A stretch of 64,000 nt of DNA from Mariniflexile fucanivorans (lineage in GTDB: Bacteria; Bacteroidota; Bacteroidia; Flavobacteriales; Flavobacteriaceae), in the NCBI RefSeq assembly GCF_004341235.1, contig NZ_SLUP01000007.1:1-64000 (forward strand). Direction: 5' to 3'. The notes under the pieces are model-generated. The model did no database searches. It was not told the origin of the DNA and saw only the letters and a list, made by a program, of their open reading frames with translations. The position numbers and the translations under genes were made by a program. Below, in pieces: positions 6,511-28,670 of this stretch. Position 1 is the stretch's first letter. The number at the start of each line of letters is the position of its first letter.

Positions 6511-7797
6511 ATGAATTTACCAAATAAAATGACAGCAGACGAAGCTGTAAAATTGATTAAATCGGGAGATCGCGTATTAATTCAAGGAGGGTCAGCTACA
6601 CCTCAAGCTTTGATAAGAGCTATGGTTGCTCGCGGTCCTGAATTAAAAGGTGTAGAAATCTGTCATTTACATACAGAGGGAGAATGTGGATATGTTGCTC
6701 CTGAACTAAGAGATAGTTTTCATACTAGTGCCTTTTTTATTGGCGGAAACGTTAGAAAAATGGTTGGTGATACTGTAGATTATATTCCAATTTTTTTAAG
6801 TGATATTCCAAGTTTATTCCGTCAAGGATATATGAATTTAGATGTTGTTTTAGTTAATGTGTCGCCTCCAGACCAACATGGATTTTGTTCTTTAGGAGTT
6901 TCAGTAGATATTGTTTTATCTGGAATTGAGCACGGTAAAACTATTATAGCTCAAATTAACCCAAGAATGCCAAGAACTTTTGGAGATGCTCAGGTTCATT
7001 TAAGAAACTTTTCTGCTTGTGTAGAAGTTGTTGAGGAAATTTATGAAATGAAATTTGTACAACCATCTGAAGAAGAAAAAGCTATTGGTAAAAATATTGC
7101 TGGCATTATTGATGATGGTGCTACACTTCAAATGGGTATTGGTGGAATTCCAAATGCGGTTTTAACTTATTTAACAAACCACAAAAATTTAGGAGTTCAT
7201 ACTGAAATGTTTTCTGAAGGTTTAGTAGATTTGGTTGAAAGAGGCGTTGTTAACGGTTCTCAAAAGAAAACAAATCCATATAAAATTGTATCAGGATTTG
7301 CTATGGGTACTAGAAGATTATACGATTTTATGGATAACAATCCAGAAATTGAAATGAGAGACATCGCTTATGTAAACGACACGTCTATTATCCGTCAAAA
7401 TCCAAAAGCTACAGCCATTAACTCTGCTATAGAAATAGATATTACTGGTCAGGTTTGTGCGGATTCAATTGGTACAAGAATGTTCTCTGGTGTTGGTGGA
7501 CAAATGGACTTTATGCGTGGTGCAGCCTTATCTCAAGGAGGAAAACCAATTATTGCAATTTCCTCACAAACATTAAAAGGCGTCTCTAAAATTACACCAA
7601 TGTTAAAACAAGGTGCAGGCGTAGTAACTACCAGAGCACATGCACGTTTTGTAGCAACCGAATTTGGTATTGCAGAGCTTTTTGGAAGAAACTTAAAACA
7701 ACGTGCAACAGCCTTAAGAGACATTGCACATCCTAATCATAGAGAAGAATTAGATAAAGCTATTTTTGAGAGATTTGGAAATAGTATAACCGTTTAA
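6511..7797 (+). CDS. Acetyl-CoA hydrolase/4-hydroxybutyrate CoA-transferase family protein
   Basis: The 428-residue protein belongs to the Cat1/AbfT class I CoA-transferase family. Glu232 in VHTEMFSEG matches the glutamate that forms the CoA-thioester intermediate, and GVGGQMDFMRGA near residue 330 is the oxyanion and CoA-site loop. Located between the decarboxylase and mutase genes, it most likely moves CoA between propionyl-CoA and succinate or acetate. Substrate choice among succinate, acetate and 4-hydroxybutyrate cannot be read from the sequence. The 47-bp upstream gap and 29-bp downstream gap indicate cotranscription. Confidence 0.85.
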   Translation: MNLPNKMTADEAVKLIKSGDRVLIQGGSATPQALIRAMVARGPELKGVEICHLHTEGECGYVAPELRDSFHTSAFFIGGNVRKMVGDTVDYIPIFLSDIPSLFRQGYMNLDVVLVNVSPPDQHGFCSLGVSVDIVLSGIEHGKTIIAQINPRMPRTFGDAQVHLRNFSACVEVVEEIYEMKFVQPSEEEKAIGKNIAGIIDDGATLQMGIGGIPNAVLTYLTNHKNLGVHTEMFSEGLVDLVERGVVNGSQKKTNPYKIVSGFAMGTRRLYDFMDNNPEIEMRDIAYVNDTSIIRQNPKATAINSAIEIDITGQVCADSIGTRMFSGVGGQMDFMRGAALSQGGKPIIAISSQTLKGVSKITPMLKQGAGVVTTRAHARFVATEFGIAELFGRNLKQRATALRDIAHPNHREELDKAIFERFGNSITV

Positions 7798-7826
7798 ATA
7801 TAAAAGTTGAACATAATATAAATAGT

Positions 7827-9614
7827 ATGGATACTAATAAAAAGCTTTTTTCAGAATTTGCTCCTGTAACCAAGCAGCAATGGATTGAAAAAGTAAATGC
7901 CGATTTAAAAGGCGAAGATTTTAATAAAAAACTAGTTTGGAATAATTTAAGTGGTCTCGATTTTCAGCCTTTTTATACAAATGAAGATGCTATTACCCAA
8001 CTTAAAAACACAGGAGAAAATTCACAAGCATTAGTGAATTACAGAACTGTTGCAGTTTGTTGTGCTGAATCTGGAAACGAATCAGCAAAAAAAGCAGTTG
8101 AAGAAGGTCTTAACGGAATCATTTTTCAGTTAATAGATAAAGTAGCTGTTTCAGAACTTCTAAACGGAATAGATTTAAACACTGTTACAGTTTCTTTTGA
8201 AGTGTATAATAATGCCATTGATTTCACTAAAGATTTAGTGGCTTTTGCAAAAGGGAAAAACCTGAAAGGTTATATTGATACAAAAATTATTTCTAGCTAT
8301 GTAACAACAGCCTCTTTTGATGAAAGTAAAGTGGATGTTGCTGCAGAATTAGTAAAATTAACGGCCGATTTCCCAAACTTTAAAGCCATTACCGTTTCTG
8401 GAACAGAATATTTAGATTCTGGTGCAAACCAAGTTCAAGAGATTGCTTATACTTTAAATTCCTTAGTTTTTTTAGTTGAAAAATTAAAAGAAAAGGGTGT
8501 TGAGGCACAATCCATTTTCAACAACTTAAATGTGCAATTAGCTATAGGCTTAGAGTACTTTGTTGAAATTGGTAAATTCAGAGCGTTTAATAATTTATTA
8601 GCTGAAGTGGCTGCAAAATATGGTGTTACAGATTTTTCTAATACCATAACTGCTAAAACGTCTATTTGGAGTAAATCGGTTACCGATGCAGAAACAAACT
8701 TATTACGTTGTACGACTGAAGCTATGTCTGCCATCTTAGGTAATGTAGATGGTGTTTTAATTGATGCTTACGATAAAGAGTTTAAGAGTTCTTCAGATTT
8801 TTCTAGTAGAATCGCTGGAAACATCACCACTATTTTAAGAGAAGAATCTTATTTTGGGAAAGTTTCAAATCCAGTTGATGGTTCGTATTATATTGAAGAA
8901 GTAAGTTCTAAAATTGCTGAAAAAGCATTGGAATTATTTAAAGCAATTCAATCTGAAGGAGGTTTTTATACTGCTTTTGAAAACGAAACCATTCAACAAC
9001 AAATTGCTGAAATTCGTTTAACAAAATTAAAATTCCTAAGTCAACGTCGTTCTGCCATGGTAGGTATTAACAAATATCCTAACTTAATGGAAACGGTAGA
9101 ACCTAGTATTCTTTCTAAAGCTGATGCTGCAAATCCAAAAGTGTTAACGCCACGAAGAGCGTCTTTAGAAATTGAAGCAATGCGAAGAGTGACTGAAGAA
9201 TTAGTTGCAGCTACTAACGTACGTCCCATAGTGCAATTAGCGAGTTACGGAAATTTAACCATGCGTAAGGCCAGAGCTGCTTTTGCTTATGATTTTATTG
9301 GAGTAAGTGGTTTTGACGTTCACCAAGAAGAAAGCTTTGAAAGCGCTGTAGTTGCTGCTACACAAAGTGCCAAATCTAATTCTCACGTTGTTGTTATCTG
9401 TAGTTCAGATCAAGATTACGATGAAACAGCAATGGACTTCATAAAAGCATTTAGAGCTATTAATACTGATAAAGTATTATTATTAGCTGGTGCTCCTAAA
9501 AATATGGACGAATTAACTGAAGCAGGTTTAGATGGTGTTGTAAATATGAGATCAGATGTTCTTGTAACACTTTCAGCTATTCAGAAAAAAGTTCAAAAAA
9601 CATTAAATTCTTAA
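7827..9614 (+). CDS. mutA: Methylmalonyl-CoA mutase small subunit
   Basis: The 595-residue protein matches the non-catalytic subunit of heterodimeric mutases. It has an N-terminal [11 protein letters not shown] segment, a degenerate TIM barrel, and a C-terminal Rossmann domain (about residues 470-595) lacking the DxHxxG cobalamin motif found in its partner. It stabilises the catalytic subunit. The large-subunit gene starts four bases after its stop, consistent with stoichiometric translation. Confidence 0.93.
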
Positions 9615-9618
9615 GACT

Positions 9619-11751
9619 ATGCAACCAGATTTTTCAGATATAAAATTAAATTCAGCTGTTAAACCAACCGTTGAAAATAAAAATAATCAAGACGTTTGGA
9701 ATACGCCTGAAGGCATCCCTGTAAAAAAACATTTTACAAAGGACGATATTTCAGAAGCAGAACATCTAAACTATGTTGCTGGAGTACCTCCTTTTTTAAG
9801 AGGACCTTATACCGCAATGTATGCCATGCGTCCTTGGACAATTAGACAATATGCAGGTTTTTCTACTGCCGAAGAGTCAAATGCTTTTTACAGAAGAAAC
9901 TTAGCAGCAGGTCAAAAAGGACTTTCAGTAGCATTCGATTTAGCAACACATAGAGGGTACGATTCCGATCACCCTCGTGTAACAGGTGATGTTGGTAAAG
10001 CAGGTGTGGCAATCGATTCTATTTTAGATATGGAAATTTTATTCGACCAAATTCCGTTGGATAAAATGTCTGTTTCTATGACCATGAACGGTGCTGTATT
10101 ACCCATTATGGCGTTTTACATTGCAGCAGCTAAAAAACAAGGTGTTTCTTTAGACCAATTAAGTGGAACCATCCAAAACGATATTTTAAAAGAGTTTATG
10201 GTGCGTAATACATACATCTACCCACCATTACCTTCTATGAAAATTATTGGTGATATTTTTGATTACACCACTAAAAACATGCCTAAGTTTAACTCTATTT
10301 CTATTAGTGGTTACCACATGCAAGAAGCTGGTGCAACGGCCGATATTGAGTTAGCTTATACCTTAGCTGATGGTATGGAATACATTAGAACAGGTTTAGC
10401 ATCTGGTTTAAAAATTGATGAATTTGCACCTCGTTTATCGTTCTTCTGGGCGGTAGGAATGAATCACTTTATGGAAATTGCAAAAATGCGTGCTGCACGT
10501 ATGCTTTGGGCAAAAATTATAAAATCATTCAATCCACAAAATCCAAAATCAATGGCATTGCGTACGCATAGTCAAACATCTGGATGGAGTTTAAGTGAGC
10601 AAGATCCTTTTAACAATGTGGCACGTACGTGTATTGAAGCAATGGCTGCTACGTTAGGAGGAACACAATCTTTGCATACCAATGCATTGGATGAAGCGAT
10701 AGCGTTACCAACCGATTTCTCTGCAAGAATTGCACGTAATACACAAATATTCATTCAAGATGAAACCCAAATGACTAAATCAGTCGATCCTTGGGCAGGT
10801 TCTTATTATGTAGAATATTTAACTCAGGAAATAGCTAAAAAAGCTTGGAAACTTATTGAAGAAGTTGAAGAGTTAGGTGGTATGGCAAAAGCTATTGAAA
10901 CCGGTGTTCCTAAAATGCGTATTGAAGAAGCTTCGGCAAGAAAACAAGCGCGTTTAGATTCTGCTCAAGATATTTTAGTTGGGGTTAATAAATTTAGAAC
11001 CGAAGAAAAATCGAATATTCAAATTTTAGAAGTTGATAATTCAGTTGTTAGATTATCTCAAATTGAACGTTTGAAAAAATTAAGAGCAAACAGAGATCAG
11101 AATGTTGTTGATGCGAAATTAAAAGCATTATCAGAATGTGCTGCAACTGGAAAAGGAAACTTATTACAGTTAGCTGTTGAAGCTGCTGAAAATTTTGCCA
11201 CTTTAGGTGAGATTTCAGATGCTTTAGAAGCTCATTTTGGTCGTCATAAAGCCGATAACAAATTAATTAGCGGTGTATATGGTAAAGAAGTAAGCGACGA
11301 TAGTACATTTGCACAAGCACAAAAAATTGCTGATAATTTTGCTGAAATTGAAGGACGTCGTCCGCGTGTGATGGTTGCTAAAATGGGACAAGATGGGCAT
11401 GATAGAGGTGCTAAAGTGGTAGCTTCTAGTTTTGCCGATTTAGGTTTTGATGTGGATATGGGGCCTTTATTCCAAACTCCTGAAGAAGTTGCAAAACAAG
11501 CTATTGAAAATGATGTGCATTTTGTTGGAGCTTCTAGTTTAGCGGCTGGTCATAAAACCTTAATTCCTCAATTAATTGGTGAATTAGAAAAATTAGGAAG
11601 ACCAGATATTATGGTGTTTGCAGGTGGTGTGATACCAGAGCAAGATTATCAATATTTGTTAGATCGTAAAGTTGCTGCCATTTTTGGACCAGGAACTGTA
11701 ATTTCTAAAGCAGCGATTTCCATTATGGAAAAATATTTAGAACAGGATTAA
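9619..11751 (+). CDS. mutB: Methylmalonyl-CoA mutase large (catalytic) subunit
   Basis: The 710-residue protein has the substrate-binding TIM barrel (about residues 20-420) and a C-terminal cobalamin domain with DGHDRG at 592-597. His594 is the lower-axial cobalt ligand. GASSLAAGH and [11 protein letters not shown] complete the B12 site. It isomerises succinyl-CoA and (R)-methylmalonyl-CoA. It is the last gene of the operon, followed by a strong terminator. Its repair GTPase, MeaB, is encoded convergently about 1.2 kb downstream. Confidence 0.97.
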
Positions 11752-12983: not shown

Positions 12984-13988
12984 TTAAAACGATGCCTTAA
13001 ACTTTTCAATTATTTGTTGAGCCGCTTTTACGGGCGATATTTCATCTGAAATAATATCTTTTTCAAGAACAGAAAGTTGGCTAGAAATGTCTTTAGAACC
13101 ATAAAACATGTGTTTAAGTTCTTCATTAATATTATCGTACATCCAACGTATTTTCTGGTAATTTCTGTTTTTATCGAAATAACCGTTGTCTGTAACTAAT
13201 TGTTTGTATTTTGAAATTTCCTCCCAAACGGTATCGATACCTATATTTTTTGTTGAAGAGGCTTTGGTAACAACAGGTTCCCAACCAGATTCCGATTGCG
13301 GAAAAATATGCAGTGCATTTTGGTATTGTAAACGTGCCATTTCGCTCATGCGTACATTGTCGCCATCCGCTTTATTAATAACCACCATATCTGCCATTTC
13401 CATGATGCCTTTTTTAATGCCTTGCAATTCATCGCCGGCACCTGCCAACATAAGCAGTAAGAAAAAATCGGTCATACCATGAACCGCAGTTTCAGATTGC
13501 CCTACACCAACAGTTTCAATTAAAATAACATCGTAACCGCCAGCTTCACAAAGCAACATGCTTTCTGCCGTTTTGTTGGCAACACCACCAAGGGTGTCAC
13601 CAGAAGCTGATGGACGTATATACGCATTTTCTAAATTGCTAAGTTCTTCCATGCGGGTTTTATCTCCCAAAATACTTCCTTTGGAACGTTGACTACTGGG
13701 GTCTATGGATAGTATGGCAACTTTATGCCCTTTTGTAATGAGGTGCTTGCCAAAGGCTTCAATAAAAGTACTTTTTCCAACCCCAGGTACGCCTGTAATT
13801 CCAATACGTATGGAGTTTCCAGAAGCTGGTAAAATGGCTTGAATAATATCTTTGGCTAAAAGTTTGTCGCTTTCTAAATTGCTTTCTATTATGGTGATGG
13901 CTCGGGATAGAATAACGCGGTCGCCACGTAAAACACCATCAATATAGGCTTGGGCGGTGAGTCTGTTTTTTCGTTTGTAATTAGTCAT
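12984..13988 (-). CDS. meaB: Methylmalonyl-CoA mutase-associated GTPase MeaB
   Basis: The 334-residue G3E-family GTPase has the Walker A motif GVPGVGKST at 66-74, the switch segment ETVGVGQSE from 158 and the NKAD base-specificity motif at 205-208. It gates adenosylcobalamin loading and removes damaged cofactor from the mutase; older annotations call it ArgK. Its placement near mutAB, though on the other strand, fits. A helical N-terminus and a C-terminal dimerisation arm are both present, so it appears complete. Confidence 0.95.
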   Translation of the reverse strand: MTNYKRKNRLTAQAYIDGVLRGDRVILSRAITIIESNLESDKLLAKDIIQAILPASGNSIRIGITGVPGVGKSTFIEAFGKHLITKGHKVAILSIDPSSQRSKGSILGDKTRMEELSNLENAYIRPSASGDTLGGVANKTAESMLLCEAGGYDVILIETVGVGQSETAVHGMTDFFLLLMLAGAGDELQGIKKGIMEMADMVVINKADGDNVRMSEMARLQYQNALHIFPQSESGWEPVVTKASSTKNIGIDTVWEEISKYKQLVTDNGYFDKNRNYQKIRWMYDNINEELKHMFYGSKDISSQLSVLEKDIISDEISPVKAAQQIIEKFKASF

Positions 13989-14163
13989 TTAATAGTGGAA
14001 AATTAAAGCTATAAAGATACTGATAATGTGAAAATTTGCCACGTGTATTGGGGTGTTTTTTGTTAAAATTCATGGGATTTCAATTAAAATGAACCTAATT
14101 TAAGTATGATCCTGATTTCTATAAAAATACATGGTTGTAAAGGTGAACTCACGTTATAATTCC

Positions 14164-14186
14164 AGCGAGGCACGAAGCAATCTCAT
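14164..14186. repeat. Partial palindrome-element head
   Basis: This copy begins at GCGAGGCACGAAGCAATCTC without the leading CGTCATT and without a right arm, so it looks like a decayed or truncated relative of the complete elements downstream. The gap from 13989 to 14163 contains nothing else recognisable. Confidence 0.7.
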
Positions 14187-14195
14187 TCTCGCTTA

Positions 14196-14294
14196 CGTCA
14201 TTGCGAGGCACGAGGCAATCTCATCAAACGTACTAAAGTGTGTTAAGGTAAACAACCAACAGATTACTTCGGTCGTGCCTCCCTCGTAATGACG
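14196..14294. repeat. Complete palindromic element, copy A
   Basis: The left arm starts CGTCATTGCGAGGCACGAGG and the right arm ends CCTCCCTCGTAATGACG, its imperfect complement; the roughly 45-base centre includes ACGTACTAAAG and GGTAAACAACCAACAG. Each arm can also fold alone: ATTGC with GCAAT on the left, ATTAC with GTAAT on the right. Confidence 0.9.
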
Positions 14295-14310
14295 AAATGT
14301 ATGATGTTCC

Positions 14311-14412
14311 CGTCATTGCGAGGCACGAAGCAATCTCATGAAACGTACTAAAAAGTGTTTTCAAGGTAAACAACCAACAGATTACTTCGGTCGTGCATCC
14401 CTCGTAATGACG
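14311..14412. repeat. Complete palindromic element, copy B
   Basis: It is nearly identical to copy A, including the centre with GTACTAAA and GTAAACAACCAACAG, and in the same orientation. It ends 19 bases before the ATG of the GIY-YIG gene, leaving little room for a promoter outside the element. Confidence 0.9.
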
Positions 14413-14431
14413 AAAAATATTATATTAGAGC

Positions 14432-14731
14432 ATGAAAAAATCATATGTGTACTTTTTAACAAACAAAAATAAGACGGTTATTTATATAGGAGTTACAAGT
14501 AATTTGTTAAAACGGGTTTACCAACACAAAACAAAATCATATAAAGGATTTACTCAAAAATACAATTGTGATATTCTTGTTTATTTTGAAGAATTTGAAG
14601 ATATTAATCAAGCTATTTCTAGGGAAAAACAATTGAAATCTGGGAACAGAAAACGTAAGGAAGCACTAATAAATTTAGAGAATCCTAATTGGAGTGATTT
14701 ATCGGACGGTTGGTTGTTCTATTTTGATTAA
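14432..14731 (+). CDS. Small GIY-YIG endonuclease-like protein
   Basis: The 99-residue single-domain protein has YVYFLT at 5-10 and YIGVTSNLLKRV at 18-29, the two halves of the GIY-YIG motif. The catalytic Arg is likely Arg28 and the metal-binding Glu is Glu65 in AISREKQLK. The length matches the stand-alone UPF0213/YhbQ-type nucleases. It is enclosed by palindromic elements, copy B 19 bases before it and the copy C head 21 bases after it, all in one orientation. A role in mobilising or processing those palindromes is my inference. No partner gene adjoins it. Confidence 0.88.
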   Translation: MKKSYVYFLTNKNKTVIYIGVTSNLLKRVYQHKTKSYKGFTQKYNCDILVYFEEFEDINQAISREKQLKSGNRKRKEALINLENPNWSDLSDGWLFYFD

Positions 14732-14752
14732 TAAGTCCGTTATTGTTTTTCC

Positions 14753-14803
14753 CGTCATTGCGAGGCACGAAGCAATCTCATGAAACGTACTAAAATGTTT
14801 CAA
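14753..14803. repeat. Palindromic element, copy C (left arm only)
   Basis: It matches copies A and B from CGTCATTGCGAGGCACGAAG through ATGAAACGTACTAAAATGTTT and then stops exactly where the IS982-type element begins. The right arm is not found on the other side of the insertion, so the element was truncated, not simply split. Confidence 0.85.
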
Positions 14804-15825
14804 ACCTGAGTTCGACCTAAGAAATCGATTTTTTAACATAGAAAAAGTAGAATATTTAGTGTATTAAAGTACTGAATTCCAATATATTGTAAAATATTCT
14901 GCTATGATTTCTAAAGATAAAGTTACTGAAATATTCTGTTCTATCGGTGATTTTTGCCTTGTTTTTGAACCTGCAGTTCAAAAACGACAGCTTTCCACAG
15001 GGAAAAAGACCGGAAAACGTAAATTTACCATGTCCACCAGTGAGATTGTTACCATTACCGTTCTGTTCCATTTAAGTGGAGTAAGAACCTTTAAACACTT
15101 TTATATTGGCTATGTCCAAAAGCACCTCGCGCAAGAATTCCCCAACACGGTTTCATACAATCGTTTGTTGAGCTCATGCAATCCAACATACTACCGTTGA
15201 CCCTGTACATGAAGACCTGTTGTTTGGGGCAATGTACTGGAATATCTTTTATAGACACGACCCCGATACGTGCCTGTAAAAACAAACGTATAGCACAAAA
15301 CAAAGTGTTTAAAGATATAGCTACTGTAGGTACTACCATGGGGTGGTTCTATGGTTTTAAGCTCCACATCATTGTGAACGACAAAGGCGAACTGCTTGAT
15401 TTTATTATAACCCAAGCCAATGTAGATGACAGGGCACCTTTGAAAGAAGATAACTTTTTGAAGAAAATATTCGGAAGCTTATATGCTGATAAAGGGTACA
15501 TATCCAAAGAGCTTTCCAGTTTGTTATTTGACCAAGGACTTCATCTGGCAACCTGTATCAAAAACAACATGAAAAATGTAATGATGACCATGAGAGATAA
15601 AATATTGCTCAGAAAACGCTCGCTTATAGAAACCATAAATGACCAATTAAAAAACATTGCTCAAGCTGAACATTCTCGACATAGAAGTTTTGGTAATTTC
15701 ATTACCAATTTAGTCGCCAGTCTTATTGCCTATTCTTTTCAAGAAAGGAAGCCAAGCATAAATTTGAAACAGAAAACACAGCGCAATTGGCTCTTTTTTA
15801 TTAAATCTTTAAATCGAACTCAGGT
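14804..15825 (+). mobile_element. IS982-family insertion sequence (inactive)
   Basis: The terminal inverted repeats are ACCTGAGTTCGA at 14804-14815 and TCGAACTCAGGT at 15814-15825, weaker further in. The length is 1022 bp, and starting with ACC plus about 1 kb size is typical of IS982. It contains one transposase frame broken by a frameshift. No target duplication is evident between the flanks. It sits on the edge of palindromic element C. Confidence 0.85.
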
Positions 15826-15886
15826 TCTTACAAAAACCCAAATGTTTTCAACCCTACGATTACCATTAATCGATAATTTAAAATAG
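14904..15886 (+). pseudogene. IS982-family transposase, frameshifted
   Basis: The N-terminal part (from 14904, MISKDKVTEIF) and the remainder (DDE segments FIDTTPIRACKNKR, LYADKGYISKEL and RSLIETINDQLKN) lie in different frames. The switch falls at CGTTTGTTGAG (15163-15172): one extra T would restore a continuous reading of YNRFVELMQS. This is best explained by a one-base deletion in a T run. The second frame also reads through the right terminal repeat and stops at 15886 in flanking DNA. All three catalytic acidic residues remain, so the decay is recent. Confidence 0.85.
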
Positions 15887-15917
15887 TTTTTAGAGGTCTC
15901 CTTCGAGTCACCTTCGA

Positions 15918-15987
15918 CATTCCTTCGAGGATTCTTCGTAAAAAGCCTTATTTTACGAAGGATTCCCGAAGAACCCTCGAAGAAGTG
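15918..15987. repeat. Long imperfect inverted repeat rich in CTTCG
   Basis: The core stem CTTCGTAAAA (15934-15943) pairs with TTTTACGAAG (15951-15960) around a seven-base loop. An outer stem, CTTCGAGG (15923-15930) with CCTCGAAG (15975-15982), is separated from it by an asymmetric internal loop. It lies just outside the insertion sequence and is not part of it. The remaining gap to 16200 holds only a terminator. Confidence 0.7.
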
Positions 15988-16014
15988 TGGGAGAATGCAT
16001 TTTGAATTATATAA

Positions 16015-16061
16015 AAAACACCGATGAAATACATGAATGTTGTGCATGTCGTCGGTGTTTT
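16015..16061 (-). terminator. Terminator downstream of the dienelactone hydrolase gene
   Basis: AAAACACCGA (16015-16024) pairs with TCGGTGTTTT (16052-16061), with an inner ACATG/CATGT helix. Read leftward, the stem is followed by a run of T, so it suits the minus-strand hydrolase gene, 140 bases from its stop; it may also stop rightward transcription from the insertion sequence. Confidence 0.7.
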
Positions 16062-16200
16062 ACTAAAAATAGGTATGTGTTTCGATAAAACGAGCTATTC
16101 ATAATGCCGTTTATCGATTATTTTAAATGATTAGCTACATGTTGTGGTAACTGTAAAGATGTAATAAAGTGGGTTGTATTAAGTCAATTCTTTTTTAGGG

Positions 16201-17088
16201 TTACTTCAACTTCTCCTTGAAAAAAGCAATCGTTCTTTCCCAAGCCAAAGTCGCTGCTTTTTCATCATACCGTGGTGTGGTATTGTTGTGAAAGCCATGG
16301 TTTGCATCGGGGTAAAAATGTGCAGTGTATTCTATGTTGTTTTCTTTTAAAGCATCTTGGTAAGCTGGCCAACCTTCATTTACACGGGTATCTAAACTGG
16401 CATAATGTAACTGCAAAGGTGTTTTTATTTGAGCCGCTTCTTCGGCTGTGGGTTGTCCACCATAAAAAGGAACAGCTGCTTTTAAGGTTGGAACTTTTAC
16501 AGCCATCATATTGGAAATCCACCCACCAAAACAAAAACCAACAACACCTATATTGCCATCGCAATTGGGGTGGGCGCTTAGGTAGTGGAAAGCGGCAATA
16601 AAATCTTCAAGCATGTCATTTTTATCACGTTTTTTCTGAAGCTCTCGTCCATCGTCATCATTTCCGGGGTAGCCCCCTAAAGGTGATAAAGCATCAGGTG
16701 CTAAGGATATAAAATTTTCAATAGCGGTGCGTCTGCCTACATCTTCAATATAAGGGTTTAAGCCTCGGTTTTCGTGTACAACAATAACACCTGGTAATTT
16801 TTTCGTGGTATTATCGGGCATAGATAATAACCCTTTTATGGTGCCACCACCTTTAGGCGATTCGTAGGTGATATATTTGGAATCTAAGCGCGCATCATCT
16901 GGTTTTACTAAAAGGGTATTGATGTAATCTGGGGTTATAAAACTTAATAAAGAGCCTACCGTAATACCTCCAACGGCATATATAGATAGTTTTTCAACAA
17001 ATTGGCGTCTATCTATTTTGTTATGAACGTAATAATCATACAAATCAAAAACTTCTTGGTTGATATCCTCTTTGGTGAGCTTTTTCAT
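16201..17088 (-). CDS. Dienelactone hydrolase family protein with Tat-like signal
   Basis: This 295-residue alpha/beta hydrolase has the catalytic triad Cys186 (GVVGFCFGGW), Asp233 (ASLDTRV) and His264 (DANHGFH), the cysteine-nucleophile set of dienelactone hydrolases. Residues 26-50 (DRRQFVEKLS followed by a hydrophobic stretch) resemble a twin-arginine signal or anchor, placed after a 25-residue N-terminal extension as in YghX-type proteins. The physiological substrate is unknown. It is probably the second gene after the esterase, 24 bp apart. Confidence 0.85.
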   Translation of the reverse strand: MKKLTKEDINQEVFDLYDYYVHNKIDRRQFVEKLSIYAVGGITVGSLLSFITPDYINTLLVKPDDARLDSKYITYESPKGGGTIKGLLSMPDNTTKKLPGVIVVHENRGLNPYIEDVGRRTAIENFISLAPDALSPLGGYPGNDDDGRELQKKRDKNDMLEDFIAAFHYLSAHPNCDGNIGVVGFCFGGWISNMMAVKVPTLKAAVPFYGGQPTAEEAAQIKTPLQLHYASLDTRVNEGWPAYQDALKENNIEYTAHFYPDANHGFHNNTTPRYDEKAATLAWERTIAFFKEKLK

Positions 17089-28016: not shown

Positions 28017-28670
28017 TTAATTTTTAAGAAATACTCGGTTAAATATTCCAAAAGAACCAATACTTGTTCGTAGTGAAATACTTACTCCATTAACGAAATC
28101 GCCACCACTTGCCGCATTTATAGCTGGATCAGCAAAAACTGGACCGAAGCCAGAAGATTGATTTGGGATTATAACTTGATTTGCAGAAACTTGCACCATA
28201 ACCACATTAACGCCATTGGGAGGTAAAACATCATCAGCGTTATAAAAGCCATCTGCAATTTTTGTGACGTTCATTTTATGTGCGGCGTTAGTATTTCTTG
28301 TATAACTACCAGACAAATCATTAGCACGTACAGCAGCTAAGTCATCAACAACTGCGACAAATCTAAAAGTAGTACCATCAAAACCATCAGCATTGGTTGC
28401 TGCATAGGTTAATTTGTATACGCCAATTTTGCTGGTATCCACAAAACCAGTTGTTGTTAAAGGTAGTACTGCTCCCCCTGAAGAAGCAGTAACTCCTGGA
28501 TCTGTAAAAGTAGTTCCCAGTTCTATTGCCATATATTGGTCTCCTGAAATTTCAAAGTCTGGGTAAAACGTAATTTCAGACCGAATAGGGTTTTCTTCTG
28601 TACAAGATACCATCAAAAACACTATTAGCATTAATGACAGACGACTTATATATTTAAATGTTTTTTTCAT
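28017..28670 (-). CDS. Ig-like SusCD accessory lipoprotein (DUF5012-like)
   Basis: The 217-residue lipoprotein has the signal LMLIVFLMVSC (Cys23). Residues 35-110 (PDFEISGDQYMAIELGTTFTDPG, key DPGV and YKLTYAATNADG) form a DUF5011/5012 Ig-like fold. The C-terminal half, beginning at LSGSYTRN, resembles the second domain of surface lipoproteins in Sus-like loci. It likely captures a ligand at the cell surface for the SusCD complex. It is 29 bp downstream of the susD gene. Confidence 0.75.
   Translation of the reverse strand: MKKTFKYISRLSLMLIVFLMVSCTEENPIRSEITFYPDFEISGDQYMAIELGTTFTDPGVTASSGGAVLPLTTTGFVDTSKIGVYKLTYAATNADGFDGTTFRFVAVVDDLAAVRANDLSGSYTRNTNAAHKMNVTKIADGFYNADDVLPPNGVNVVMVQVSANQVIIPNQSSGFGPVFADPAINAASGGDFVNGVSISLRTSIGSFGIFNRVFLKN

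Follow-up and report, generated by a model that had tools for sequence, protein, structure and literature searches.

The small GIY-YIG nuclease gene of Mariniflexile fucanivorans considered here is bracketed by repeats, which raises the question of whether gene and repeats belong together and, if so, what the enzyme might do with them. Re-reading of the sequence in the window (the whole 64,000-nucleotide stretch of DNA analysed) revealed a partial unit, two dimers, the GIY-YIG gene, a half dimer and then an insertion sequence (IS), all in one orientation (Table 1), with the ATG 19 bases beyond copy B and copy C beginning 21 bases past the end of the stop codon. The preliminary description had placed A, B, the ATG, the stop and the third copy, as well as their common orientation, correctly. 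Its reading of A and B as complete palindromes of about 100 bases is replaced here by that of head-to-head dimers, in which a unit CGTC-ATTGC...GCAAT-CT and an inverted, longer unit with ATTAC...GTAAT flank a centre of ~40 bases that is part of neither REP unit. The third copy starts where it had been placed, but it is a half dimer only, cut by the IS and lacking its right half. The inverted ends of the IS were located by eye at 14804-14815 and 15814-15825, and a clear target duplication was not seen by eye in copy C. Two overlapping frames share a split DDE_Tnp_1_3 transposase, the first (14904-15200) having no Pfam match and the second (15176-15886), which matches DDE_Tnp_1_3, extending beyond the right IS end as read.

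Table 1. Coordinates of the repeat units, the nuclease gene and the adjoining insertion sequence in the window.
Feature	Position	Strand	Remark
Partial CGTC-REP unit (GCGAGGCACGAAGCAATCTCAT)	14165..14186	+	direct repeat family
Copy A, head-to-head dimer of two CGTC-REP units	14196..14294	+	dimer DNA fold z -4.6
Copy A unit 1	14196-14222	+	
Copy A unit 2	14261-14294	-	
Copy B, second head-to-head dimer	14311..14412	+	dimer DNA fold z -5.0
99-aa GIY-YIG nuclease gene	14432..14731	+	PF01541, 62.6 bits (cut-off 22.6)
Copy C, left half of third dimer, truncated by IS	14753..14803	+	
Insertion sequence, outside module, interrupts copy C	14804..15825	+	ends ACCTGAGTTCGA / TCGAACTCAGGT, by eye

The window unit reads CGTCATTGCGAGG...GCAATCT; it is palindromic, bears the CGTC tag terminally on one side and is present in many copies. 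Six matches to its arm (≤2 mismatches) were detected in the window, five at the module and one, with 2 mismatches, at 28211, compared with 0.42 expected and at most 2 in any of 100 shuffles. Folded as single strands of DNA, A and B are far more stable than shuffled sequences (z in Table 1; 0/200 shuffles equal), and the single units fold weakly and no better than shuffles (left units, -2.3 and -2.4 kcal/mol; right units, -1.4 and -1.2 kcal/mol), the left-unit fold consisting of a clean paired stem of 5 bp and a 10-base loop. A reading of the locus as an RNA element was rejected, no Rfam family spanning the palindromes or the gene in the range 13900-16200, where five matches at E up to 1 were obtained between 15062 and 16076, each of them below its gathering score. 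An inverted repeat CCTTCGA...TCGAAGAAG at ~15896-15988 in the window has several matches in same-genus genomes. The preliminary description knew of no formal account of such a system; this is only partly correct, since the repeats have been published as CGTC-REPs (available text of PMC3733652). A GIY-YIG nuclease family with cognate genomic repeats (Ssn) was also reportedly described in 2025. For a link between GIY-YIG enzymes and REPs, no paper was found among titles and abstract openings (preprints and most subscription papers lying outside the scope). No word starting with 'GIY' occurs in the main text of PMC3733652 or in the available text of a 2025 REP survey (PMC12306157).

The protein itself carries a clear, stand-alone GIY-YIG domain, and its AlphaFold model has a pLDDT of 94.8. 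The nearest solved structures were UPF0213 (Z 7.1), Slx1 (6.8), UvrC (5.7) and I-TevI (5.4), unrelated entries starting at Z 3.4 and below. Residues Y7, Y18, R28 and E65, which we take to be the catalytic positions of the GIY-YIG fold, were invariant in alignments of 16 and of 29 sequences. The window protein thus has its fold in common with UPF0213 (1zg2, 1ywl), UvrC, Slx1 and I-TevI, for none of which we know of cognate dispersed repeats.

At the scale of the genome, CGTCATTGCGAGG was found at 84 sites when a single mismatch was tolerated (26 sites being exact and 58 differing at one base), compared with 2 for the reversed control, so that solo copies outnumber the five arms at the gene, in line with the expectation of the preliminary description. 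Three of the 26 exact sites are in the window, 24 lie outside ORFs as predicted by a simple program, and for 11 a partner in the opposite orientation (≤2 mismatches) occurs no more than 170 bases away. An array of about eight REP repeats with spacings of 115-154 bp was also observed at G000:C1:601559-602571, ~78 kb from the nearest GIY-YIG match among those listed on that contig. In addition, ten GIY-YIG matches were detected in the genome, comprising seven small genes (L031-L034 and L036-L038, with a stop in L038) and three matches within open frames that encode 458-603 aa (L035, L039, L040). As judged by eye, palindromes bracket all seven small genes and differ in type, namely GTCATTGCG at the window gene, GTCATTTCG at L036, GTCA..CTGAGC at L031, L037 and L038, and ..CCTGAA..TTCAGG at L034 and, with a degraded tag, at L032. 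Of the GTCA..CTGAGC..GTCGAAG type, 10 copies were counted in the genome (control 0). The GTCATTTCGACG repeat of the L036 type is represented by 4 exact copies, of which three lie at the gene, and shows no genome-wide excess when one mismatch is allowed (13 vs control 18), a count that is uninformative. Histidine-operon-like surroundings (hisA/hisB neighbours, proteins read by eye) were seen for the GIY-YIG genes L032, L187 and L200.

Such repeats could in principle be moved by a REP-associated tyrosine transposase (RAYT) or another transposase, with the nuclease incidental, given that the available text of PMC3733652 reports CGTC-REPs without a dedicated transposase and perhaps moved by several. 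A Y1_Tnp (PF01797) profile search of this genome, however, gave no match at E ≤ 0.001, compared with matches in 5/14 control genomes. RAYT mobilisation in this genome was accordingly rejected, and the transposase explanation as a whole appears very improbable.

Linkage between gene and repeat was then assessed across genomes. Protein alignment against genome contigs confirmed at least 543 relatives, and the 80 best were retained together with flanks of up to 10 kb; these were mostly from Flavobacteriaceae, others being titled, e.g., Chloroflexota, Microgenomates or Helicobacter, and many were MAGs. The arm GTCATTGCGA (≤1 mismatch) occurred within 300 bp of 72/80 GIY-YIG genes in this best-80 set, compared with 97/860 other ORFs at the same loci, and words of at least 14 bases common to both flanks were found for 53/80 GIY-YIG genes vs 24/860 ORFs. 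Since the repeats are mostly intergenic, the linkage test was redone on intergenic gaps alone, where the GTCATTGCGA arm was present in 117/146 gaps beside the gene vs 55/502 elsewhere, at densities of 7.8 and 0.83 copies per kb, respectively. At 13 selected loci that either belong to groups other than Bacteroidota or have unclear titles, the arm was found on at least one side in 11 and was absent at L127 and L140. The predicted association of small GIY-YIG genes with the repeats beyond chance was thus borne out as a strong enrichment beside family genes in many genomes. It might be argued that variable intergenic regions simply gather REPs and small genes without any functional link, as REPs and gene do lie in variable regions and the stretch beside meaB varies among the six genomes of the genus; this is largely contradicted by the intergenic-only control and by the co-variation of protein clade and repeat type described below, and hitch-hiking of this kind is highly implausible. 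At L290 (G174:C34, ~6990-9750), about eight tandem 364-bp units were observed, each with a more distant GIY-YIG match and, by eye, an apparent tRNA 3' end (GGTTCGAGTCC).

Pairing of repeat type with protein clade was assessed as well. At least 132/199 same-family genomes have a homologue, and the loci already collected plus 60 hand-picked from the 199-genome listing gave 188 GIY-YIG frames, or 183 after removal of duplicates (including one long protein, L039). Five tag types, defined by regular expressions with variants allowed, were searched for in 400-bp flanks, and at least one was present at 141/183 genes (76 ATTGCGA, 34 xCTGA, 17 ATTTCGA, 11 ATTCCxGC and 3 ATTCCGA), with the tag on both sides of 100/141, compared with 6/183 after one mononucleotide shuffle of each flank. 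The other 42/183 genes had none of the five types within 400 bp, many of them looking hairpin-bracketed by eye. A generic hairpin test gave no separation when either side counted (58/183 GIY-YIG genes vs 261/879 controls) and a mild difference for both sides (18/183 vs 27/879; untagged genes 10/42). When repeat types were mapped on a quickly built tree of 177 proteins (136 with a label), 12 changes were counted, compared with an average of 54.9 and never fewer than 48 when the labels were shuffled 1000 times; this test is inflated by the common ancestry of loci, yet paralogues in this genome bear different repeats. Repeats tied to other clades include GTCATTTCGA and GTCATTCCTGC.

The copy number of the repeat also followed the homologue. 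Among the 22 genomes with a best homologue of at least 96 bits, exact GTCATTGCGAGG copies averaged 5.2, vs 1.0 in the other 177, and at least one exact copy was present in 15/22 vs 48/177 (p 3.5e-6, or 1.4e-5 without this genome). Because the 96-bit cut had been picked by eye with the copy counts already known, the comparison was rerun at 120 bits (17 genomes, mean 5.1 vs 1.1, p 2.6e-4) and at 90 bits (35 genomes, mean 3.9 vs 0.95, p 6.0e-7), both of which gave a difference in the same direction. Exceptions were G016 with 27 exact copies and no homologue among the matches listed, G110 with 22 and no close homologue among the matches listed, and 7/22 close-homologue genomes without an exact copy. 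The earlier proposal that a GIY-YIG enzyme recognises the palindromes gains indirect support from the co-variation of protein clade and repeat type, which would make the repeat a putative substrate of the enzyme.

The junction between trpB and trpA offered a site at which occupied and empty states could be compared. A TrpA query from a gene-bearing genome matched 186/199 genomes, and the best 70 junctions were read, of which 67 were readable; as only the best 70 of 186 were used, the sample is skewed to the relatives of the query. GIY-YIG genes at the junction were found by profile search. Fifteen of the 67 junctions measured 2-14 bases (start codon counted) and were repeat-free, and 14/67 held a GIY-YIG gene, with hairpin motifs in all. 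Ten of these genes form one lineage, with ATTTCCG and 82-100% identity to L168, and four form a second, with the GTCATGCTGAAC type and 70-100% identity to L181; at least L259 and L278 are decayed. Another 14/67 matched the tagged-repeat expression with no detectable gene (shuffled rate 2.6%), including L226, L228 and L261, which resemble decayed cassettes by eye, and L265 (841 bases), where the match may be chance. The remaining junctions had only another repeat family (13/67) or neither (11/67), and no target duplication was seen at trpB-trpA by eye. A second dispersed family, GCGTTACCxCAAGGGTCGGGCTTTC ... TAACGC, was noticed at trpB-trpA (L212, L213, L225, L227, L229 and others), with 11 copies (≤2 mismatches; control 0) in the M. 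fucanivorans genome, e.g., at G000:C3:147908.

These junctions bear on a homing-endonuclease style of mobility, in which the GIY-YIG gene alone would be mobile and would enter existing REP dimers spread by other means. The fold does include I-TevI-like homing enzymes, and the unit-gene-unit layout, also at trpB-trpA, could correspond to a dimer split by the gene. Nevertheless, the two trpB-trpA lineages each have their own hairpin and 15 genomes are repeat-free there, repeat type tracks protein clade, paralogues of this genome bear different repeats, and whole dimers precede the gene in the window, all of which make homing an unlikely account. The window gene itself has an intergenic position, and a half dimer follows it.

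Comparison within the genus revealed further turnover. At L021, a gene-less dimer of this genome, 174 bases lie between the anchors, and the dimer is absent in G201, G202 and G200 (60, 55 and 63 bases, respectively); G199 has a different 319-base stretch in which the arm was not seen by eye, and G134 was left out as one anchor was not found. The meaB gene is present in 6/6 genus genomes. In two, namely here and in G202, a close GIY-YIG homologue (78-79% identical) occurs in its vicinity, separated from it in G202 by another gene. This intervening gene of 292 aa (L330, 1316-2194) has the look of an Mrr-type restriction protein by eye. In G201 the close homologue is located ~295 kb from meaB within a repeat array near a contig end, and gene-less repeats occur ~1.9 kb from meaB. 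No full-length close GIY-YIG match was found by DNA in G134, G199 and G200, with short partial matches (77-114 bases) at other places in G199 and G200. Outside the genus, meaB adjoins no other fetched GIY-YIG locus (L042-L210). Moreover, the right-hand gene (16201-17088) does not adjoin meaB in any of the four relatives possessing it, so that the right side of the module marks a rearrangement point.

Taken together, physical linkage is strong, repeat type is tied to protein clade, repeats and gene come and go between relatives, gene-bearing cassettes and gene-less repeats occupy the same sites, and the units act like insertions (trpB-trpA, L021). It is therefore likely that the small GIY-YIG protein and the surrounding CGTC-tagged REP units constitute a cognate nuclease/repeat module, in which the dimers would be either the mobile offspring of the enzyme or its genomic target set. 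Points that count against this reading are the weak folds of the single window units, the absence of a visible target duplication at trpB-trpA, the genomes that break the copy-number trend, the 42 untagged genes and the low count of the L036-type repeat. A further step, which we propose tentatively, is that the enzyme actually moves CGTC-REPs, the module being an insertion-like element whose GIY-YIG nuclease acts on tagged hairpin ends; gene-bearing cassettes would then be the autonomous form and REP dimers their non-autonomous offspring. The enzyme would bind the GTC-tagged hairpin as a single strand, made available by replication, uptake or extrusion, recognise the hairpin of its own clade and nick at or next to the tag, and repair or copying of the freed ends would occasionally spread a dimer or a unit-bracketed gene to new intergenic or intercistronic sites. 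By analogy, gene-less dimers would stand in the same relation to the cassette as REPINs do to RAYT loci. The repeats may also be copied by ordinary duplication or recombination.

A host-kept function, possible on the present evidence, would depart from this scheme only at its last step and is compatible with the module: tagged single-stranded DNA would be cut and the repeats would modulate uptake, exchange and recombination, with the enzyme moving none of them. The reported role of Ssn in Neisseria points in this direction, as do the GIY-YIG genes and repeats at trpB-trpA and, judging from neighbouring proteins read by eye, at his operons, whereas the empty sites, the decayed genes and the site differences among close relatives resemble the turnover of an element. 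The two roles may coincide in the cognate module, which may also persist because cleavage of tagged single-stranded DNA adjusts uptake or recombination, as is reported for Ssn in Neisseria.

With regard to known systems, CGTC-REPs were defined in 2013 by Di Nocera et al. in five phyla, with Bacteroidetes and G. forsetii among the named carriers and, in the available text, no dedicated transposase reported (PMC3733652). The repeats described here resemble them, as far as the available text of PMC3733652 goes, in the CGTC tag, the AT at the stem start, the head-to-head dimers and the mostly intergenic location, and differ in the tightly linked GIY-YIG gene and apparently in the stem (8-9 bp as published, 5 bp in the fold of the window left units). 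Published loops measure 4-5 bases and that of the window left units 10 bases; head-to-head dimers predominate in the published set, and 11/26 exact sites here have an opposite partner. The clade-specific link names the ~100-aa GIY-YIG nuclease as a candidate enzyme for CGTC-REPs, makes the target of each enzyme predictable from its flanks and allows the spread of CGTC-REPs to be tested using a protein other than an HUH transposase. If the enzyme mobilises them, the gap left in 2013 by the missing dedicated transposase would be filled, and if the targets are cut, the pairing would provide a list of nucleases, specific for hairpin or single-strand sequences, that could serve as tools.

Two further systems are close to the module. 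Ssn nucleases (Nature Communications 2025) are reportedly GIY-YIG enzymes that cut single-stranded DNA site-specifically at repeats (NTS) dispersed in Neisseria, and the study is said to cover thousands of homologues with a range of specificities. The module is similar to Ssn, as reported, in combining a small stand-alone GIY-YIG enzyme with a dispersed genomic repeat that goes with it; the six weak NCBIfam matches to the window protein include none named Ssn. REP/RAYT systems, for their part, consist of a Y1/HUH tyrosine transposase gene bracketed by repeats with a GTAG tag. The likeness to their layout proposed in the preliminary description holds for the dimers, the gene-bracketing units and the gene-less copies: as in REP/RAYT systems and REPINs, the gene is bracketed by repeats, gene-less inverted dimers occur, and solo copies outnumber gene-linked ones, whereas the bracketed gene encodes a GIY-YIG enzyme instead of a Y1/HUH transposase and the tag is CGTC/GTCA, not GTAG. 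By analogy, the module probably works like REP/RAYT with a GIY-YIG enzyme in place of the transposase, and probably represents the Ssn nucleases among flavobacteria.
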